Source of the DNA: Cystobasidium ongulense
Lineage: Eukaryota > Basidiomycota > Cystobasidiomycetes > Cystobasidiales > Cystobasidiaceae
Length of the DNA stretch: 64,000 bases
Direction of reading: 5' to 3'
Assembly (NCBI GenBank): GCA_022835595.1
Contig: BQUP01000004.1
Span: 1,488,001 to 1,552,000, forward strand
Shown: positions 37,328 through 54,655 of the stretch, piece by piece
Layout of the letters: each line of letters begins with the position of its first letter
Numbering within the stretch: the first letter of the stretch is position 1
Translations under genes and position numbers: made by a program
Notes under the pieces: model-generated
Database searches by the model: none
The model's input: the letters and a program-made list of their open reading frames with translations, nothing else
What the model was told of the DNA's origin: nothing

Positions 37328-38830
37328 TTAGTTGCATTGCCGACAATTTCCGAAATGCTGAGCAAGTGTTAAACCATCAGCAGTTAAGGTATTCATGCGT
37401 GTAGCGGCTCCTTTAGCAGACGCTTCCTGTGCCATCGTTTTTCCACTGGCCAGCGTGGTCGTCATCATCGTGGCGTTGGCGGCCGCCGTCCCTTCTTGGG
37501 CGATCGTCAGTCCGTTTGGCAGCACTGTGGTATCTCTCTACAAGAAATACGAGCTCATCAGATTAAGATACAGCGACTATCGATGCCAACCTACTTGTGA
37601 GGACCGCCTTAACATTGCCAACTTGATAGCTATTCAAGGCATTTTCGTCGACGTTCGCCAACCCTGATGATCGATAGGTTCAGTCACTTGTTATCATGGT
37701 ATAGTGTCTGCTCACTAGTGGCAACTGCGTTAGCAGTCCCCTGCTGCATCAGCGTTAGGCCATTGGCAAGTACTGTTTTATGCTCTATAACACAAAAGCA
37801 AGATTCAGACAGTTTCCCCTTTCGGAGAGAATTCTCAGGTGCGGCTGCAATAGCCCTACTGGTAATGACAGCCTTGATCATGGCTGCTTTGGATATAGTG
37901 AGTCCGCTTGGCGTGAGAGTCGTGGTCTCTGTAATATGTTGGTCGGCTTACAACACAAGGATTCTCAATTGGACGCACTCACTCGTCAGGCTTCCTTTGA
38001 TTCCAGCTTGCTTCAATATGGTCAAGCCGTTCGGTAAGAGAGTAGTAGTGCCTTGGTATACGATATATTGTAAGCACCGCTGTGTTGCCCTCGACGGAAC
38101 GAAAGACGCGACTGACGAGTAGTAGCACCGCGCGCAGATGCCTCCTGCGCAATGGATAGACCACATGGCAGCAAGGTATGTTCTATGTAGCGCACAAGAG
38201 CCCGTCAGCTTCGATCTCGATGGTTATTAGGAGTCGCCTGGACGTACTCGTCGCAATTATCTTCTCCTGCTGCTCTTCGAGTATCGTCTTCCCACTGGGA
38301 AGGACTGTATTGCGGCCTATGATGGGCTCGAATAAGCGTTCGTTCATGGGCACGCCAGCCATAACACTGGAAAGCGTGATAGACGTGGTAGACTTACGTG
38401 TGTCCCATGCCCTTTCGGAATGAAGTCGCATCGCCTGACGGATGCACGACTCGGTTCCGCTAGACGGATCGATTGCATCTCCAAATGTAGAACTGCAATA
38501 GTCGCGGATATATTCCGGAAGTTTCGCCCAGGGGATGTCTTTACCACTATCTATCTCTTTTCGACGAGCAATTGGGAAGGTCAGGTGATGGATTCGTTCC
38601 TTTCCTCCAGAAGGTTTTGCTCGCCAAGCAAAACTATTGGTAGTCGTGATGGCGGCGTCTTCGCCTACGCTAGATGTGTGGAGTAAGTGTGTGATAGAGT
38701 CAAGAAATGCGCCATGGCGCCAAGTACCATCATTAGGAGGGTTTTTCCTAGCACTAGCCAGGCAAAGGTGTTCTGTGAAACAGACTAGCTTTCCGATATG
38801 AACCTGGCCCATAACGATTCGGTAGAACAA
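37328..38830 (-). CDS. Unrecognised protein of 23-residue repeats, one repeat per exon (copy I)
   Basis: No known family recognised. Near the 5' side an exon reads KDIPWAKLPEYIRDYCSSTF then GDAIDPSSGTESCIRQAMRL, ending at a GTAAGTC donor near 38398. After it come six small exons, each one degenerate repeat with a core like T(V/L)LPNGLTIAQEGxxKAxAT: 38248-38316, 38117-38182, 37983-38051, 37860-37928, 37716-37784 and 37595-37663. Five are exactly 69 nt and one is 66 nt, each starting with two bases and ending with one base of a codon (phase 1 on both sides). The last exon holds about three fused repeats (LPNGLTIAQEG, LASGKTMAQEA, TADGLTLAQH) and stops at 37328. The acceptor of the last exon does not join cleanly in frame, so the gene may be decaying. 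The 5' end above 38570 is unresolved. No signal or membrane segment seen. Confidence 0.55.
37595..38316 (-). repeat. Six consecutive repeat-encoding exons (69 nt, one 66 nt)
   Basis: Minus-strand exon repeats with phase-1 borders; introns between them are 52-75 nt and unrelated in sequence. Encoded cores in transcript order: NTVLPSGKTILEEQQEKIIA; HTLLPCGLSIAQEASARGAT; TTTLLPNGLTILKQAGIKGS; TTTLTPSGLTISKAAMIKAV; HKTVLANGLTLMQQGTANAV; LANVDENALNSYQVGNVKAV. The intron always falls at the same point of the repeat, within the Lys/Ser codon after (A/V)(A/I)T. Confidence 0.75.
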
Positions 38831-38969
38831 ACGCTGCGAGTGAAAAACCAGAGTCGAATCAATATCATTGACTATGCATGGTCATGGTCGTGGTCAAAGA
38901 CATACGCAATTGAAGGTGTAACCGCCTTTCGGCCATTCTCCGCTTTCAGACCTTACGTTTACCAACAGG

Positions 38970-39600
38970 TTCGGTCACTTGTTCTCACGGTAGACGGTCT
39001 GCTCACTAGTGGCAACTGCGATGGCAGTCGTCTGCTGCATCAGCCTTAGACCGCTATCAAGTATTGTTGTATGCTCTACAACACAAAAGCCAACTCACGA
39101 ACCGGCTTCACAAAGCCATCGTCAACAAGCACTTTCTCGAATACCTTGTCTGATCTGGTGTCATTGAGGCTATTCCCTTTGGGCCATACCCAGGAGAATT
39201 GCTCCTTCGGTATCTTCACGCGTAGATCGAACTGGGCACTCAGGTCTAGTTGCATCGACATTTCACAATCAACGACCCAATCCGCAAGGATTGCCTTGTC
39301 TTCTGGCGACCTGTGGAAATGTAGAACATTATCAAGTGCATCAGGCCATATTCGGACGTACTTGTTGGACGGAAGGACTACATACCAATATAGACAAATG
39401 CCAGCACCTCGAGGGACAGCTTCTCTTCCCGTTGGAGAGGATCACGTTGCGTCCTATGATGAAGTAGAATCAGCATTTGTTCATGGATCTGCAACCTGTA
39501 TACTGCAAATAGTGGTAGACCTGATAGACTTGCTTGTGTCCCTGTCCTTTTCGCCATGAAGGCGCATTACCTGGCGTAGACACGACTCGATGTCGCTAGC
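38970..39600 (-). pseudogene. Decayed partial copy of the 23-residue-repeat gene (copy II)
   Basis: Between the two better copies lies a third set of matching pieces. ESCLRQVMRLHGEKDRDT (39585-39530) matches ESCIRQAMRLHSERAWDT of copy I. An exon after TCATAG (39386-39453) begins RNVILSNGK, matching RNTVLPSGK. A 69-nt exon at 39007-39075 (HTTILDSGLRLMQQTTAIAV) is a close copy of the 37716-37784 exon, flanks included. Between them another open stretch reads VLPSNKYVRIWPDALDN then HFHRSPEDKAILADWVVDCE and FDLRVKIPKEQFSWVWPKGN, with no counterpart found in copy I. Relative to copy I, about one base is missing near 39610 and the first repeat exon is 68 nt, so the frame is not kept. It seems a truncated copy joined head-on to copy III. 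Confidence 0.5.
39007..39075 (-). repeat. Isolated 69-nt repeat exon, duplicate of 37716-37784
   Basis: Same length, same phase-1 borders and the same flanking intron ends (...TTTTGTGTTGTAG before, GTGAGCAGAC after). The similarity runs from about 38969 to 39090 against 37678 to 37800. Confidence 0.75.
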
Positions 39601-40834
39601 CGATTGATTGCTTCATCGATTTTAGAAGCGCCTTCTTGCGCTATTGTCCTGGCACTAGGGAGGAAAGTTGCGCTCTTCGTGGCCGCAGCCATACGGGCGC
39701 CATGTTGCGCTTTGGAGAGTCCATCGGGACGTATCATCGATGTCGCAGTAGCCGCTGCTTTCATTCCGGTTTCTTTGGCCAGTGAATTGCCGTTTGGCAG
39801 TATCGTAGCCATTTTGGTCGCAGCTGCCTTGGATCCACCTTCCTGAGCAGGGGTTTTGCCATTGGGTAGAATTGTGGCCTTCCGTGTGGCGGTAGCTGCC
39901 GCCGAGCTGGCCTTACAAGCTTGTCCGAGGTACGAGAGAGTAGTGTCGTCGCGGTCAATAACATCACCGTATTTGCGATCACAATATTCTCTCAAATCTT
40001 CCGGAATCTCCAGGTACGGTATCGCTTGTCCGCCTTCTAGTTCATTGCGAAAATGTTGCCTTCTGTGATCCTGCACGTATTGGGAGGGGGGGCGTGCTAT
40101 CTACGATGAGTCCTGTGACTGCGTCCAACGTGGACGTATAGTCTGAGAATAGAGGAAGAAGCATCGAGTCACTTGCATGCTTTTTCGTACACACATGTAC
40201 ACACGTGTTTCACTGCTTTTGCGTATAAATGCCGGATGTGCTGGTCGATGGTATAGCTGCCGTTCGCTGTGTTGGGTAGAATCTGAGCGAGAGCTTGTAA
40301 TTATTTCTGGACGAACTTATAAGGAGCCTGATAGGTAGCTACTTATCATGGAGAGGCTGGAGAGTAGTAGGTCTAATGACAAAGGAAATGCAACTCGTCA
40401 GCGAAAGCCAGAAGATAATTTTATGCTTGCAAGCGACTCACTCAGGGTATCCAGCGTGAACTGCCTTTTCTTCATGAAAGAATGCAGCAGTACTCTCTTC
40501 GGTAGAAGCTGTGTTTAGCTGGAAGAAGGTAGTAATGTTGTGTTCATCTTGAGCAAACTCTTCTTCCTGGAAGAAGGTAGTAGTACTGTATCGGAGAGCA
40601 ATGCCTCAGACACGGAACGCACTCGTTGTTCGATGCAGCTAATGGAACTCACGGTGAAGGCATTAGGTCTCGCTTCTTGCGCTCTGTATCCTGAGCGTGA
40701 TAGATCTTGCCCAAAGCCATATCGTAGAAGCCGCGTCTTTGTTGTATTTGCTGTCTCCTCGACATGTCTAAGCCCGAATCTTCTTTCGCCAGTCCATCCA
40801 GAAGCTCGGAGGGTAGGTCAAGATTTTCCAGCAT
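39567..40834 (-). CDS. Unrecognised protein with four fused 23-residue repeats (copy III)
   Basis: Exon 1 reads MLENLDLPSELLDGLAKEDS then MSRRQQIQQRRGFYDMALGK and ends at CC|GTGAGT near 40656. A second exon gives EEEFAQDEHNITTFFQ and TASTEESTAAFFHEEKAVHA. After further introns an exon starting GATCAC after a C-rich acceptor (about 40071) reads HRRQHFRNELEGGQAIPYLE then IPEDLREYCDRKYGDVIDRD. This matches copy I (IPWAKLPEYIRDYC..TFGDAID). It runs straight into four repeats in one exon (39609-39884): ATILPNGKTPAQEGG, ATILPNGNSLAKETG, SMIRPDGLSKAQHGA and ATFLPSARTIAQEGA, with exact 23-residue spacing. The last 15 residues to the stop at 39567 are read out of frame from copy II sequence. The repeats have small amphipathic character and many Ala/Lys/Thr. 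Function unknown. Confidence 0.58.
39609..39884 (-). repeat. Four 23-residue tandem repeats without introns
   Basis: Four units of 69 nt in one open exon, same repeat family as 37595-38316. The positions where copy I has introns are here ordinary Lys or Ala/Thr codons (AAATK|M, AAAT|A, AAATK|S). Confidence 0.75.
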
Positions 40835-41784
40835 GACTTCATACTTCCAAGATATCACGAAGTATTGCAAATTGCCCAACTCCCCGAGGGAGTGGAGCTG
40901 AAGTTCATTAATTTAGTTGGTCAAAACGAAGACAAGATTGACCTGGCCCCAAGCTGCTTTTATACCCCGAAAGTGGAAGCTATACGAGCCTTCCAACCTT
41001 CCAATTAGTAACACGACGTCAGTGGCCTTCCACCTGGGATAGGTATCCGTACATATCCACGTCCCTTCTATGCAACTCTCGGAAGGGAAGCATCTCCTTT
41101 GAGCGTCGAGCCAGGCATAAGGGAAAGTGAGTGGTTGGTTGCCAGCAAAGTGAGCCAGTCCCGCTCCTTGATGCTTGCCCTAGCCTATGGAAGGATGGAT
41201 GCATGTCTGCGTCTTGCTGAAGAAGCGTGGTAGGCAGTCGATGTGACATGCATATGCGCCTTGCCACGGCGGATCGATCAACGTTCGACAGCTCGCGCAC
41301 TTGCCTGAATGGACCCTCCCTGGAGACCAACGGGCACATGCGAGGACTCGTAGTCGTTAGCAGTGTGACCTGTTGCTTCTCCTGGCGCGTGGGCTAGTGG
41401 ACAGACTAAGGGCGAGGAACTTCATCTCGCGTCAGGCAAACCGCAACTGGAACAAAGCTCGATTGGGAGAAATGGTCAATGAGGCTGAGAGTCGCCTAAG
41501 ACAAGTTGAAGCCTCTACGACATAAGGAAGGTGAAAACCGAGCAAGTCTAGCTGGTATGGAGCAGACCTGAGTGCTTCAGGCAGGAACAACGACTGATGT
41601 TAGGAAATGGTTATAGGCGGGGCAGATTTCAAAGAATCATCAAACTAACAGCGAGGAAGTGAACTAGGCTACATCGTGGAGAAGGACAAAAGGATGGGAG
41701 GACAAGAGGTCGTAGAAGCAGTCCGAAGCGCACCGCGTCCAGTGGAGGACCGTATAATTGTGGTGGCGCTGAGCTGAAAAGTCT
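40835..41784. other. Intergenic region upstream of repeat gene
   Basis: About 950 bases. An ORF on the minus strand (41019-41339) has no recognised content. It should hold the promoter of the copy III gene and the 3' end of the first Rds1-like gene. Confidence 0.35.
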
Positions 41785-42885
41785 CTAATAAGAGAAGTTT
41801 CGGTTTGGAAGGGGAACATTAAGCAGAGCAGGTCCTGCAGCAACTGCCTCATCTGCAATACTCTTAGTCTTGGTAAGAAGCAGGTAGCTCTGTCCTCGAA
41901 TGCCGTCTGGGATGGTGATAGTCCCTTCGCTTCCGGAGATGTCCATGAATTGAGTGCTGGTAGCAGAGACGAAAGCAGCGTACTTGGCGCCGACTTGCTT
42001 GGCAGCCTTGAAGTTGACCTTGGCACCTGGTTTGGGTGTGCCCTCGATGGTAGCGCTCAAGCCGGGGAAAGCAGTGAAAGGTAGAGCTGGGTTGGACTTG
42101 GGGCAGCTCTTGATGAAGGGAGCAGCGAGCGAGTAGACTTCAGAAAAGTCAAGTCCAGCAGCGAAAGCGCGTGGGAAACCATCCTGAGAATCGACAGCCG
42201 ACTTGAGCCAGGTCTCGTGCTGAGACTCGACAACAAGAATGCTTCCTGCAACAGCGAGATATGCCTTGTTGGAGATGGAAGGAGCAGCTCCGAGGTAAGC
42301 AGCCATGCCTGAGAAGAGAAAGACAGAAACAATGTTAGTTGCGTATATATGCTGACTTTGATGATGCGATATCCAGCTTACCGACACCCTCTAGGATCTG
42401 AGCAGTGGCGACAAATGTCTGAGGAGAAGTGACACCAAAGTCGTAAGTGCAAGGTTGGACTGGAGTGGCACCAGCAGCCTTGAGAGCGGTAGTGAGGAAG
42501 TCGACGTGAGTCTTCTCGTGGCTAGCAATCTCAGTGAGACGCTCTCGGACCCAAGCAGGGCTGGCAAACAGGAACAAGTTAGCAACAGCNNNNNNNNNNA
42601 ACTCACTACTTGGCATCGTTGAAGGCACCAGCATTGTACATCTGGAGGCCGGACTTGTAGAAGGCAGCCTCTAGATGCTCGAGACTGTCACGTGCAAGAA
42701 AGTCAGCTATAATTCATCGACAAGCAAACCAATGTTACTCACGTAAGAGCGTAGTTCAAGATGGTAGCATCATCGTACTTGCCGCCATTGTTACGTGCGA
42801 CGATGGACTTCTCCTGAGTGGAGGGAGCGGCAGCGACGAGACTGGCGACGGCGAGGGGAGCAGCAATTTTCTTGGTGAAGTGCAT
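41785..42885 (-). CDS. Rds1-like ferritin-fold secreted protein, copy 1
   Basis: Ferritin-like domain protein (Pfam Ferritin_2 type, Rds1 group); the family is linked to stress and nutrient change in fungi and its biochemical role is unclear. MHFTKKIAAPLAVASLVAAA is a signal peptide. Then DDATILNYALT|LEHLEAAFYKSGLQMYNAGA, PAWVRERLTEIASHEKTHVD, the segment TYDFGVTSPQTFVATAQILE, and AAYLGAAPSISNKAYLAVAG followed by ESQHETWLKS. The E..H motifs (LEHLE, SHEKTHV, ESQHETW) match the four-helix ferritin fold. The C-terminal half (PFTAFPGLSATIEGTPKPGA onwards) is beta-rich and ends LPNRNFSY-stop at 41785. Four exons. Ten N bases (42590-42599) lie in the second intron. It is nearly identical to copy 2. 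Confidence 0.92.
42590..42599. other. Assembly gap (10 N)
   Basis: Ten undetermined bases in intron 2 of Rds1-like copy 1. The matching stretch in copy 2 is about 27 nt, so the real length is probably longer than shown. Confidence 0.95.
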
Positions 42886-43031
42886 GTTGAAGAAAGTTGG
42901 AGTGACGTTGGGTAGGAGGAGCTTGTCTTTAAAAGAGCGTGATAAAAGAGTGTGGGTGAGCTGTTGCTTTGTGTGTTGAGAGGATTCGTTGATAAGAAGA
43001 AAGGGAACAAGAACCGCTGTTTAATCATGTC

Positions 43032-43122: not shown

Positions 43123-45116
43123 GCGAACGCGTCTCCGTCCTGACTGACCACCAAGATGAACTCAAATGGTCGCGCCATGTTGAAGGATTCACTAATTTAA
43201 ATGACTGCTACCCTCGGTTGCGATTTGCGGAGCTCCAGCCACGTCCGATCAGTCCAAATTTCTTGGTAAACAGCGCCCTGAAGGTAATTGTTCTGATCAA
43301 GTGGCCGCAATATGCACGTGATGAATACTAACGCGACGCTACCAATTACCGGTATAACTTATGGGACTCTGCTCGTTCTGACGCGTCAGCTTACTTGTGA
43401 ATGCGACCATAGAAGGCACTTTAGCTCGGGCTCTGTCATTATTTGCCCCATCCTATATTGACCACATCTAGTCGTCACGGTCCCAGACCGGTAGATGACC
43501 ATCTTCGCAAGCAGAGGGTTGGCTGTCGGTACCTCTTGATTTAACAGCCAAATTCCGATTGACCATGCTCTGTGTTTTGTGACGGTCCAATTAGACCAGC
43601 GCGCACAGCGTCTCGCGCCTGCGAACTTAACGTACATGCATTCGGGGAGAACTTTCATTCTGACTATAGGCATCTTACGTTCGTGTATACTGAAGAGCTT
43701 CATCTTGCCGTGCGAGACTGCGAGTATTATCTTTGCAGTCAATGTAACTAGGAAGTCCGGCAATGGTACCGATGGCCGCTAAGTGGTGCAGACCGCTTGC
43801 AACTTCGGACTTGATTATCCATATGGGTGTACTTAGATTGCTGGTTATAGCGCTGCAGCAGTGGAAATGTAAGTATCTGTAATGAGACCTCGGGGACATC
43901 TATCACAATGACCTGAGTAGTGATGGTGAAAGCGACGCCTAGCAGTTGTCTTCGCTGTGAGTCTCAACTCGCCGTTCTTACCATTCGCCCACTCCCCTGA
44001 GGGGTGACGGGAGTCCGAAGTCTGCTTTGAGACTTGTTGCGGGATACAGAATACTGAATGCGTTGAGCAAGCGCATTCCACTCTGGAGAGCGCTCGGCAG
44101 AGCTAGTAGGCTCGAAGCGTGTGAGGTGCCACACCCGCTGCACGAATCATTGTTGGGATGAGTAGATCCACGAAGGATGTTAGGAGACTAGAGCAGGCGT
44201 GATGACTCGCGTTGGCTTGGCTGCAAGTTTGCAGTTGGAAGTCGAGAAGCCCTCTGGCCGCTTCTTCGGAACAGGGTAGAGACCTATCAGTCAGGCATAG
44301 ATTCGCCCGACATCTTGTGACTGTCTTATGAAACTTCTAGAGTGCTTGAATCGGGATGGCGCGATATATTGTGAGAAGTCGTATGCACAGTCGCCTGACG
44401 TGTCTTCACTTTGATGGGCATCTTCCTGCAATTCACAGAAGGCAGCTCGGTCGTTCGGCGAGTGGCAGCTGAGTCGTTTCATCTTAATGGCAGTGGGGAG
44501 GAATTGTCGACGGTGTGCTTCATACTGGTCATCTGCTATGAGTCGAAGGCTTCCGCATATCCTATCCCTCTAAAGGCAACTGGCTTCTTGCAATGCGATA
44601 GCCTGGGTGAAGCTAGACTGGTATTGATACCGATGTCCTGCTACGACCAGGCCATGCGACCACGTCTTCGAGCCTGTCCTTCAGCCTTGCGGTCGGAAGC
44701 GCGGTCATGCTGCTCGTGCTGCTCGATTGGCACAGCACTTGAGGCTTCGTTATTCAAGAGTTAACCTTGCGTTTCGACCATCGAACAGCTGCGAGGTAGC
44801 GGCAGGCTACAGCACTGGCTTGTCCACCAGCCAAATGCTGCTGCTGTAACTCGGTTCTATGTTAGACAAAGTGCAGCCTGGGACAAGCAAACCTCTGCAA
44901 GTTCCATGGGCAAGTAGCGATCGCCGTTGCAATTGGACACGGATTCCGCAGCATTTCGGAAAACCAAGATAACCATCTGATGAACAACTAATCTACTGGA
45001 CTACAGCAATGGAAGGACAAATGAAGGCCGGAGAAGGTCGGAAAGAGGGAGCTCGAAAGTGCATCCCGTGGAAAGAGGGTGTCAAAACTACCAGTACTGC
45101 AGAGCTGAAAAGTCTC

Positions 45117-46233
45117 CTAATAAGAGAAGTTTCGGTTTGGAAGGGGAACATTGAGGAGAGCAGGTCCTGCAGCAACTGCCTCATCTGCAATACTCTTAGT
45201 CTTGGTAAGAAGCAGGTAGCTCTGTCCTCGAATGCCGTCTGGGAGGGTGATGGTTCCTTCGCTTCCGGAGATGTCCATGAATTGAGTGCTGGTAGCAGAG
45301 ACGAAAGCAGCGTACTTGGCACCGACCTGCTTAGCAGCCTTGAAGTTGACCTTGGCACCTGGTTTGGGTGTGCCCTCGATGGTAGCGGTCAAGCCGGGGA
45401 AAGCAGTGAAAGGTAGAGCTGGGTTGGATTTGGGGCAGCTCTTGATGAAGGGAGCAGCGAGCGAGTAGACTTCAGAAAAGTCAAGTCCAGCAGCGAAAGC
45501 GCGTGGGAAACCATCCTGAGAATCGACAGCCGACTTGAGCCAGGTCTCGTGCTGAGATTCGACAACAAGAATGCTTCCTGCAACAGCGAGGTATGCCTTG
45601 TTGGAGATGGAAGGAGCAGCTCCGAGGTAAGCAGCCATGCCTGAGAAGAGAAAGACAGAAACAATGTTAGTTGCACATATATGCTGACTTTGATGATGCG
45701 ATATCCAGCTTACCGACACCCTCTAGGATCTGAGCAGTGGCGACAAAGGTCTGAGGAGAAGTGACACCAAAGTCGTAGGTGCAAGGTTGGACTGGAGTGG
45801 CACCAGCAGCCTTGAGAGCGGTAGTGAGAAAGTCGACGTGAGTCTTCTCGTGGCTAGCAATCTCAGTGAGACGCTCTCGGACCCAAGCAGGGCTGGCAAA
45901 CAGGAACAAGTTAGCAACAGCAAGAAGCGAACAGCATACAAGCTGGATACTCACTACTTGGCATCGTTGAAGGCACCAGCATTGTACATCTGGAGGCCGG
46001 ACTTGTAGAAGGCGGCCTCAAGGTGCTCGAGACTGTCACGTGCAAGCAAGTCAGCTATAATTCATCGACAAGCAAACCAATATTACACACGTAAGAGCGT
46101 AGTTCAAGATGGTAGCATCGTCATACTTGCCGCCATTGTTGCGTGCGACAATTGACTTCTCCTGAGCAGAAGGAGCGGCAGCGACGAGACCGGCGACGGC
46201 GAGAGGAGCAGCGATTTTCTTGGTGAAGTGCAT
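45117..46233 (-). CDS. Rds1-like ferritin-fold secreted protein, copy 2
   Basis: Almost the same protein as copy 1. It has signal peptide MHFTKKIAAPLAVAGLVAAA, then DDATILNYALT, PAWVRERLTEIASHEKTHVD, AAYLGAAPSISNKAYLAVAG, ESQHETWLKS and LPNRNFSY-stop at 45117. The two differ by few residues, such as SLVA/GLVA in the signal, SAT/TAT and TIP/TLP in the tail. The intron sequences are also nearly the same, while sequence beyond the start and stop codons is clearly different. Four exons with identical junctions. Function as for copy 1; likely cell-surface or secreted. Confidence 0.93.
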
Positions 46234-46370
46234 GTTGACGGTAGTTGACTTAAGGCAGAGTCAGGTGAGAGATTGGGTTATAAGTGAGTGTGGGTGGAGA
46301 AGCTGAAGCTGTGCAGTTGCGAAGGAAGCTGTTGATGAGAGAAGAGACAAGATGCGCAACCTTTCCTCGC

Positions 46371-47419: not shown

Positions 47420-48564
47420 TTATGAGGAGAAGTTCTGGGCTGGAACAGGGATGTTTACAATAGCTGGGCCAGCAACTACGGCACTGTCGGAAACAGCCTT
47501 GGACTTGGTGAGAATGAGGTAGCTCTGTCCGGTAATGCCCTCGGGGATCTTGATGGATCCAGACTTGCCGTCAACAGGAACGAAGACAGTACCGACAGCA
47601 GCGACGAAGGCGGCGTATTTGGCACCAACGTCTTTCTCGGTGGAGAAGTTGACGGTGTCACCAGTCTTGAGAGTACCGGTATTGGATACAGTGACAGCTG
47701 GGAAAGGCTTGAATGGTAGAGTGGGGTTGTCGGATGGGCATCCAGTAATGAATGGAGCGGCTAAGGAGTAGACTTGGTTGAAATCTAGACCCGCAGCAAA
47801 AGCTCTGGGGAAAGAGTCCATGTTGTCTGCAGATCCCTTGACCCAAGCCTCATGCTGAGCCTCAACGATGAGAATGCTTCCGGCAGCGGAAAGATAGTCC
47901 TTATTGGAGATGGAAGGAGCGGCACCGAGGTAAGCAGCCACACCTGAAAGCGCGAAGAATACAGTCAGTATGTGCGTAACAGAGGCGTATAGATATCAAA
48001 AAGAATGACTCACCGACACCCTCGAGAATCTGGGAGGTAGCCAAGAAGGTTTCTGGCGAAGTTACACCGAAATCGTACGTGCAGGCCTTGACTGGAGTGG
48101 CACCAGCGGCAGTGAGGGCAGTGCTCAAGAACTCGACGTGTGTCTGCTCGTGGCTAGCAATCTCGGTGAATCGCTCGCGGACCCATGAAGGGCTGTGGAA
48201 AGAGAGAATGAATCGATCAATCCCCTGTAGTACTTGGGAGGGAAGTGCGGAGCGAAGACTCACTACTTGGCGTCGTTGAAAGCACCGGCATTGTACATCT
48301 CTAGACCACTCTTATAGAAGGCAGCCTCGAGGTGCTCTAGACTGCATGGGGAAGAAAGAGGAGTATAAGTACGATATAAGCAAAGCGCAAAGGCTGAAGA
48401 AGCTCAAAATGAAGAACGCACGTGAGAGCATAGTTGAGAATGGTAGCATCATCGTAGCCACCGTTGTTGCGTGCGACGAGCTTCTCGCCGGATTTACCAG
48501 CAGGAGCAGCGGCGACGAAGCCGGCAAGGGCTAGAGGAGCAGCAACTTTCTTGGTGAAGTGCAT
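47420..48564 (-). CDS. Rds1-like ferritin-fold secreted protein, copy 3
   Basis: Older paralogue of copies 1 and 2 with the same four-exon layout. Signal peptide MHFTKKVAAPLALAGFVAAA, then DDATILNYALT, PSWVRERFTEIASHEQTHVE, TYDFGVTSPETFLATSQILE, AAYLGAAPSISNKDYLSAAG, EAQHEAWVKG and a tail ending PVPAQNFSS-stop at 47420. The ferritin-fold residues (E, H in SHEQTH and AQHEAW) are kept. The C-terminal beta-rich part differs most (VSNTGTLKTGDTVNFSTEKD). Introns differ in sequence from the other copies. It is probably the ancestral or an early-split member of the cluster. Confidence 0.92.
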
Positions 48565-48664
48565 GGTGAGATAGTGTGAGATAGGTAAGAAGGTGTGTGG
48601 TAGTTGGAAGTCTGCTGTGAGGTTGTGTGTGGAGAAGAGAAGAGAGACGCAGAATGAAGCTGCC

Positions 48665-51951: not shown

Positions 51952-54655
51952 ATGGGCAATTCATTCAACTGGAACCTCGTGCTGCCAGTCCTGGCACTGC
52001 TGGTGCTCTGTTCCGCTACTCCAGCTGCTGCATTCGGCGCTGGCAACATTCGTGCGTACCGTTCTACCTGTATCAGCAGGATCATTCATCCAGCAGTGGT
52101 TTTGGAGGCTGATTCGTACGCACTCTGCATGCAGCAAGCTATGCATATCTCGAAGGCAAAGCTTTCAGACACGGTGATATCGAAGATGTCATTGAAGAGC
52201 TCTCGAGATCAGGCGGCGCCGCAGCTGGTGTGCTGGGAGCATTGACAGGCGGCCTCCTGGCGAAGAAGTTCAAGGGACTCGATATCAAGCGCATCTACTT
52301 CGGCAACTGGTAAGCTTCACTTGCGCTTGACTCTGGTTGAGCACGAAGCTGAGCATGCATTACCGGTGATGATCTAGGCTCCGAGACTATTCCCAAGCTA
52401 TGGACGTAGCTGGCTTGTCCAAGTTATCAGCACAAGCAATCATCAATCTTATCATGGTCCTAGGTTTTATGGCACACGGGTTAGTGTCTAATAGACCCTT
52501 CGTCACTGCTGGAATATGCGTCCTGACAGAGGTTGTTGCACTAATTTGCAGCTATGCAACTGGCGAATTCGAAGTCACTGAAGAAAGGCTAGGATGCTAC
52601 TTGCCTACCGAGCACATCGATAATCCAAAGGACTACAACGACAACAAAGACGCGAGACAGGTCTATGGCAAGCTCCGACCACCGGTTGATCCTATGGAAC
52701 TTGAAATAGATCCGCGCAGTGGCATGCTAGTATGTTGCCCTCCTTATGTTTCATGGAAATACAGTAGACTAACACCTTCGTCCCGTAGAACTACATCGCA
52801 AATGGAAATGGCCATTGGGATACGTCAAGAGCGCTCGTTCGCCGAGTGCTGCTCCAGTGCATCGATCTAGGTAGACGTGCGCGAGGTGGTGCCGGTAGTG
52901 ATGCTCAGTACGAGGCATTCCGCCTCCTCGGCAGTGCTCTTCATACTTTGGAGGATTTCACCGCTCATTCGAATTACTGTGAACTGGCTCTACACAAGCT
53001 TGGATTCAATCAGGTCTTCTGCCATGTCGGCTCCAATGTACATGTCCGCGCTCCAGACGGAAGCATGGTCCCACCTCTCGTCACTGGTACTTTTGGTGGA
53101 TCAGATTTTATTCACTCGCTTCTCGGCGAAGCTACCGATCACATCTCATCTGCCTCGGTCTCTGACTTGAACAAGGAGATTGAGAAGGCAAAGAACCAGC
53201 CTGCAGATCGAGGCATTGATGGTATTCGTGATATGCTCTTCCAGCTACCTGGCGGAGAGGGCAACAACTTATCACGAGACATGGATGATATCAACAACAT
53301 AAGGGCAGGTGGCACTCAAGACCCAATGAACATGTCCCCTCAAGAACTACATGCCGTATTGTGGAAAGTCCTCAAATTTAGAGATGATGTCTCAAAAGCA
53401 ATCACTAACACCATTGAGAGGATCCCCGGCCTAGGCAGCCTCATCGACAAGATCGGCGACTCCGTCAGCACTTTTGTCTTCGTCACTATCGAGCCTTACA
53501 TCAAGCCTATCCTTCAGCAAGCTACCGGCGTCCTACAACAAGGCTCCGCTCAAGTTGTGAACTCGCAAGATCAGTTTAGAGTGTTCAATGACCCTAACTT
53601 CTACCACCCCACGCATTCTAGTAAGTCACTTTCCTTAGCAGTTCTCTTTCTGTGTATACTGATACATCACCTCAACAGTTCTTGCCAAGGACCACTTTAA
53701 CATGATCCTGAACGAGCCCGCTGGTCAGATCGCCCGCCTCGTAGTTAGACATGTTGTGCAAGGTGTCGTAAAGGCATGGGATGACCAATCCATTAATGCT
53801 CAACAGATGGTAGAGCAGTTTTTGGATGTCCTGCATCATCCATCATTCCAGAACGGCAGTCAACTCCAGCGAGAAATGTTTGAATACATGCGTTCGTGGA
53901 TCGGTGCCGAGGATAAGAATTATACTCTCAATGCTCTGACAAAGGATGCTGTACGCAACCACAAGAATCATAGAAAAGGACATGCGACGGAAGAACCTTC
54001 TCATGGACCAGGAGGCTATACTAGTTTCCTGCCTACACCAGCATCTCTACAAAACCAAGCCACAAACTACGTTCACCAACAAGCTCAGCATATACCTGGC
54101 TACTCTCAGTACAATCAGATGTTCCCTACTGGTCCTCGACGTGATTTTGACGCAGGGGATATGTCAGCTCAGAACGTTACCCACTCGCCGGTTGGCGGCA
54201 CCTTTGGTGGCAGTACTGCTGCAGCCCACCAATCTTATGGTGGACATAATGAGCCTCCACATCAGTATCAGCAAAGCCACTCACCATACCCTGGTCAGGA
54301 TCACGGTCAATTTGCCGGACAGCATGCACTCCATCATCAAGGCGGCGGCTTCCCTGGCCCGGGTGGCCCACCCCCTCATGGTGGGTTCGGCGGCCCACCA
54401 CATGCGCCTCATGGTGAATTCGGCGGTCCAGCACATGCTCCTCACGGTGGTTTCGGAGGTCCCCCTCCCGCTGCTGGATGGGGCGGCCCGCCCCCACCTG
54501 GTCAAGGCTGGAACGCTCACCCTCCCCATGGCGGTAGCACAAGCCCATATCCAGGAGCACAATACGAGCAGTCGCATCAGGGACAACACAATCAAGGAGG
54601 ATATCCAGGTAGTAACTGGTCGGCCAATCAACCACCTCCGTCCGGCAGGTGGTAG
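51952..54655 (+). CDS. Het-C domain protein
   Basis: Homologue of the HET-C family (Pfam Het-C), whose founding member in Neurospora crassa controls heterokaryon incompatibility; members also occur in plant-pathogenic bacteria. MGNSFNWNLVLPVLALLVLC plus SATPAAAFGAGN is a signal peptide and the HET-C start. Core segments are RHGDIEDVIEELSRSGG, IKRIYFGNWLRDYSQAMDVA, YATGEFEVTEERLGCYLPTE, HIDNPKDY, NYIANGNGHWDTSRALVRR and LGSALHTLEDFTAHSNYCEL, which is the family hallmark. Then SNVHVRAPDGSMVPPLVTGT. The last exon (53702-54655) has a helical stretch and a long Gly/Pro/His-rich tail made of a short repeat like HGGFGGPPHAP. The tail is as in known HET-C proteins (Gly-rich C-terminus). Allelic specificity regions cannot be judged from one sequence. 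Confidence 0.93.

Follow-up and report, generated by a model that had tools for sequence, protein, structure and literature searches.

On the minus strand of a 64,000-nt stretch of the Cystobasidium ongulense genome (hereafter the window), we found a locus of two related genes with a decayed partial duplicate between them, in which a 23-residue repeat is split by introns in some copies and runs without introns in others. In the six intron-split copies (five in gene 2 and one in the relic between the genes), the splice sites coincide with one column of the repeat far beyond chance, and symmetric phase-1 exons carrying a single repeat each are real as judged by the sequence evidence. The original prediction, that every repeat of the family is its own exon, is largely correct in its observations but too broad in its title, which is contradicted by 7 of the 13 copies (one of them partial) that lie inside two intronless arrays. 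Our best explanation of the locus as a whole combines a spliced gene, exon duplication, intron loss and a modular binding array, and we hold its chances of being right or wrong to be about even. Gene 2 would encode an N-terminal domain followed by a basic array of the repeat, with five repeats on exons of their own, one eroded, and a last exon that holds two more and part of a third. A symmetric phase-1 exon would have been duplicated together with its intron, enlarging the array, and the copies would then have diverged for a long time under protein-level constraint. Introns between repeats would have been lost from gene 1 and, at its 3' end, from gene 2, most simply via cDNA-mediated intron loss, of which missing neighbouring and 3' introns are the usual mark. 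The sequence itself shows the exon borders, the constraint on coding, the charge of the arrays and the collinearity of the two genes across intron A, whereas the origin by duplication, the order in which introns came or went, the fold, the binding and its ligand are inferences.

The repeat has the consensus xTxLPxGLTIAQExxxKAxATxx. A profile built from 12 copies by construction recovers these with 33.7 to 41.5 bits and gives 14.9 bits to a partial thirteenth copy at 37349-37393, which is absent from its building set; the strongest chance match elsewhere in the window reaches 5.0 bits. Six minus-strand stretches, of 69, 69, 69, 69, 66 and 69 nt, had been proposed as consecutive exons with one repeat each. 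Their coordinates are correct (Table 1), every stretch is flanked by GT and AG in phase 1, and in this phase the six splice into an open frame. The assignment of one repeat per exon holds for five of them and fails for 37595-37663, which we do not regard as a recognisable repeat because its 3.4 bits fall under the best chance match; its final residues, KAVLT, resemble the end of the repeat. One intronless array forms part of gene 1, and the other, at 37349-37531 in the 3' end of gene 2, consists of two copies and part of a third, arranged head to tail. The period of both is 69 nt, as in the split exons.

Table 1. Features of the repeat locus, with positions counted from the first nucleotide of the window
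Feature	Positions	Strand	Basis or score
Gene 1, modelled with 3 exons, 273 aa: same domain as gene 2, then four intronless repeats	39567-40834	-	predicted model
Four tandem 69-nt repeats without introns (gene 1)	39603-39878	-	33.7-41.1 bits each
Relic resembling gene 2: end of the domain, intron A, beginning of the first repeat	39424-39627	-	71% to 38287-38492
Copy of exon 37716-37784, AG and GT kept	38967-39090	-	85% to 37676-37799
Gene 2, modelled with 8 exons, 343 aa (ATG 38812, stop ends 37328)	37328-38812	-	open splice chain; start codon guessed
First exon of gene 2: N-terminal part, IP..LPE.IR.YC...GD.ID domain	38398-38812	-	domain common to gene 1
Intron A, 81 nt, GTAAGT..CATAG	38317-38397	-	absent at matching place of gene 1
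One-repeat exon, 69 nt	38248-38316	-	length, flank and phase check; repeat profile
One-repeat exon, 66 nt	38117-38182	-	length, flank and phase check; repeat profile
One-repeat exon, 69 nt	37983-38051	-	length, flank and phase check; repeat profile
One-repeat exon, 69 nt	37860-37928	-	length, flank and phase check; repeat profile
One-repeat exon, 69 nt	37716-37784	-	length, flank and phase check; repeat profile
Open stretch of 69 nt between splice sites; only its end resembles the repeat	37595-37663	-	3.4 bits
Final exon of gene 2, intronless: two complete repeats, a partial third, stop	37328-37533	-	profile and splice chain

To place the splice sites relative to the repeat, we scanned offsets -30 to 0 for AG and +45 to +99 for GT. 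GT stands at offset +64 in all six intron-split copies and AG at -7 in five, the AG of the sixth (the 66-nt exon) lying 3 nt later, and at every other scanned offset GT or AG is found in at most three of the six. The introns of the gene-2 chain share one phase (phase 1) and, in the split copies, one repeat position apart from that displaced AG. With the recent duplicate removed, a GT common to the five independent copies arose in 0 of 20,000 random placements, and an AG in at least four of the five in 0.29% of them. This coincidence at a single column argues for the explanation given above, and so do the signals of the introns, with G at +5 in all seven gene-2 donors (vs a 24% background after GT on the minus strand) and a CTNA-type motif 20-34 nt upstream of the 3' end in six of the seven introns. 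Several details count against it: intron D is without such a motif, intron C has AAG as its 3' end, splicing to the phase-1 acceptor of the last exon must pass over two nearer AGs, the three being closely spaced, and the junction codons match only loosely (K, R, K, K, R and N in the spliced gene-2 chain; K, A, K, I, M and R at the corresponding codons of six intronless copies). The source genome is intron-rich, and an RRM gene elsewhere in the window has a similar intron, GTGAGT to TGCAG, when read by eye.

The coding statistics of the 12 copies also favour our explanation. In-frame stops are absent from the 252 codons compared (12 copies of 21 codons), the other two frames holding 13 and 7; identity at the three codon positions is 0.56, 0.62 and 0.29; and the mean over pairs is 0.78 for pS vs 0.41 for pN. 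These values show that the repeats diverged for a long time under protein-level constraint and that the region codes for protein now, or long did. They bear as well on the idea that the pattern arose by chance or that the true gene lies on the plus strand, where overlapping ORFs of 151 and 162 aa are found. We consider this scarcely credible, given the splice-boundary statistics and the fact that the third positions of the minus frame are the most variable, a pattern of change by which a plus-strand gene is rejected.

The history of the locus since its last duplication is less clear-cut. In the relic piece at 39424-39627, the coding part differs by one base in length from that of gene 2, the reading frame is unlike that of gene 2, and the donor is GC where gene 2 has GT. 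Intron pieces next to the duplicated exons are common to gene 2 and the relic, and because intron A is recognisable in the relic, it is older than the relic duplication. Between the relic pieces, 39091-39309 is an open minus-strand stretch (SPEDKAILADW...) without a Pfam match, at the place that corresponds to the middle repeat exons of gene 2. For the recent pair 37779/39070, pS is 0.23 and pN 0.17 over 21 codons, which points to little constraint since this duplication. The weak constraint in this pair and the decayed duplicate between the genes count against our explanation, and together with the altered frame and donor of the relic and the disappearance of the motif from exon 37595-37663, they favour the reading that the locus is now dead, an ancient array with tandem pseudogene fragments in which the splice sites are still undecayed. 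We take this possibility seriously but find it rather unlikely, since gene 2 keeps an open chain of 343 codons with seven good donors and the repeat codons are free of stops. Going by its sequence, we regard gene 2 as a genuine spliced gene, or as one that was genuine until recently.

A domain of about 55 residues lies directly N-terminal to the repeats in both genes. When intron A is removed, genes 2 and 1 form a gapless alignment of 64 columns with 41% identity, so that the protein junction is the same in gene 1, where the intron is absent; both this alignment and the open 343-codon chain are in favour of the preferred explanation. Intron A is open in frame and may be retained. The start codon and the 379-nt second intron of the gene 1 model are guesses, and exon 2 of this gene (40519-40589) has a short internal duplication (23 nt, 87%) in which TTFFQ occurs twice. 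The two arrays are basic, with a pI of 9.9 in gene 2 and 10.5 in gene 1, as our explanation would have it, and the whole proteins have a pI of 9.5 (gene 2) and 5.9 (gene 1), the acidity of gene 1 counting against it.

The introns of gene 2 had been described as unrelated in sequence, and this stands for most of them: among 21 pairs, with z from -0.9 to 2.9, z is below 2 in 19, the exceptions being the pairs B-E (2.9) and B-F (2.3), and no near-identical introns were seen in this comparison, which covers this locus. We considered whether the introns may have been gained into an intronless array at the same site in each repeat, either by introner-like insertion or at a shared proto-splice site. 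Intronless copies with the same period do exist, the introns are mostly dissimilar, and the available text of PMC4457414 reports both introner-like elements and parallel intron gains in fungi, the former as the source, in Zymoseptoria tritici, of as many as 90% of the recent gains of single introns. Such elements would place introns at many gene sites, whereas here near-identical introns are absent among the seven of gene 2 (compared at this locus only), and the same text expects independent gains at one position to be extremely rare (PMC4457414). We judge intron gain unlikely. The explanation by exon duplication faces a difficulty from the same source, where tandem duplication is reported as a rare origin of introns, with less than 1% of single intron gains in Z. 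tritici made by duplication within a gene (PMC4457414). In the tree of the repeats, 0 of 9 inner branches are strongly supported, so either loss or gain may have occurred. Recent slippage as the source of the intronless arrays is disfavoured by the mean pS, for which all 12 copies were pooled.

To look for relatives, we searched Pfam, NCBIfam, PHROGs, PADLOC, PDB, phages, plasmids, and viral and prokaryote contigs. Neither the repeat nor the genes gave a significant family match in Pfam, NCBIfam, PHROGs, PADLOC or PDB sequences, in agreement with the earlier statement that no described family has this repeat. No homologue in a further genome turned up in these collections, which counts against our explanation. 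The best weak Pfam listing was Sas-5-like at 0.028, and KH_9, an RNA-binding fold, was listed for the gene-1 domain at 0.04 to 0.13, both under the Pfam cut-offs; the best values were 0.04 in NCBIfam and 0.32 in PHROGs, and PADLOC returned none. No LRR family was listed in the Pfam scans, and the repeat consensus is unlike LxxLxxLxLxxN. A profile search of PDB with the repeat returned 6 sequences at E <= 10. The best of them, to reverse transcriptase/RNase H (E 0.005 and 0.006), were judged to be chance because they consist of two fits, each 16 residues long and worth about 10 bits, to different places of one domain. The pattern LP[ND]Gx[ST]xAQEG had 0 viral and 11 bacterial matches, for a rough chance estimate of 7-8, and none of the 11 had a second scoring copy; a two-copy pattern had one viral match, discarded for the stops in that frame. 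Three queries used in protein scans against viral contigs gave no confirmed match, phages gave no match, and plasmids gave 4 matches at E 3 to 4.

A kinship with NUMOD3 (PF07460), first suggested by eye, would make the repeat a divergent DNA-binding helix of the homing-endonuclease kind. Both are short helical repeats with a similar G-E-K spacing, the best register matching G7, E13 and K17 to the NUMOD3 pattern, and the arrays are basic. Unlike NUMOD3, however, the repeat has no Pfam match to that family at E <= 5 or E <= 10 (HMMER filters drop very weak matches), and it does not reach the gathering score of 20.4 bits; no nuclease domain is listed for the pieces scanned, and a PSSM from ten T4 stretches, which scores -3.2 bits per copy, a value reached by 7% of 2000 column shuffles, leaves the kinship unsupported. 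We consider it very improbable.

Two structure predictions were obtained, both weak and untrustworthy (pTM 0.28 and 0.30), which itself counts against the preferred explanation. In favour of that explanation, the second model builds each of repeats 1 to 3 from a loop and a 14-17-residue helix. The first has separate helices for repeats 1 and 2 and a single 47-residue helix through repeats 3 and 4, and it counts against a loop-helix unit because these two repeats merge. Foldseek, run on the second model, listed 21 matches, 0 of them at E <= 0.001. The repeat array is perhaps a modular binding array. It would act as a modular binding surface, with a conserved turn (LPxG) and a helix that would run from the conserved T/S9 to the conserved T21 and bear the variable residues at 15 and 16. 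The basic charge of the arrays would make nucleic acid a possible ligand, a guess weakened by the acidity of gene 1 as a whole. In a bolder form, the repeats would be fungal modular binding repeats unrelated to LRR and TPR, with symmetric 69-nt exons that are gained, lost or skipped so that repeats differ in number and order, and with reverse-transcribed copies that feed the intronless arrays; the shuffled-exon receptors of algae would then have a counterpart in fungi. This form we regard as a long shot.

Of ten long frames scanned in the window, eight match Pfam families, among them Het-C (E 1.2e-89), Sec23/24 domains, a glutamine amidotransferase domain, ribosomal S5 and Ferritin_2, and the window has no Rfam or tRNA match. 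Three tandem ferritin-like genes lie on the minus strand (41768-42899, 45099-46247 and 47427-48569), the Ferritin_2 match being to the first; identity is 94% between the first and second (1149 bases) and about 67% for the third. Ten N at 42590-42599, inside the first ferritin-like duplicate unit, are probably an assembly gap. A 33-nt tandem repeat of 2.7 copies is present at 54374-54462; the reading frame that contains it is rich in Gly, Pro and His and lies close downstream of that of Het-C.

The layout of one repeat per exon is already known in algae, ciliates and animals. The brown-algal ROCO genes, as the available text of PMC11378527 describes them, have a tandem array of 72-bp, phase-2 exons with one 23-residue LRR each, for which splice variants are reported and exon shuffling and alternative splicing are proposed to diversify binding. 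Our locus is similar in its single intron phase, its tandem array and, for part of its copies, one 23-residue repeat per exon of nearly uniform length (five exons of 69 nt and one of 66, five of the six with a recognisable repeat), but it has another motif and phase 1, 7 of its 13 copies are intronless, and the algal LRRs come with an attached ROC-COR GTPase. In Tetrahymena, LRR exons of 90 bp in phase 2 also form arrays of one exact length and one phase in which each intron splits the junction amino acid, and 566 + 934 genes of T. thermophila have at least one such exon (available text of PMC6564038); in contrast to these many genes with phase-2 LRR exons, we find a single locus with another motif. 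The LRR exons of the animal gonadotropin receptors are repeat-sized with introns all in one phase, as they are here, although that phase is 2 and the motif differs (as described in the available text of PMC11378527). A fungal case was not found among the papers listed in our literature search, which is weak evidence of absence, as most subscription papers were outside its scope. What sets this locus apart within a known kind is the repeat, the phase, the fungal setting and the mixture of split and intronless copies. If transcripts confirm the splicing, the one-repeat exon layout would be brought into fungi with a repeat absent from the searched libraries, and because split and intronless arrays of one repeat adjoin in sister genes, the locus would offer a compact natural case for deciding between introns that came first, with exon shuffling, and introns later added or lost at repeat borders.
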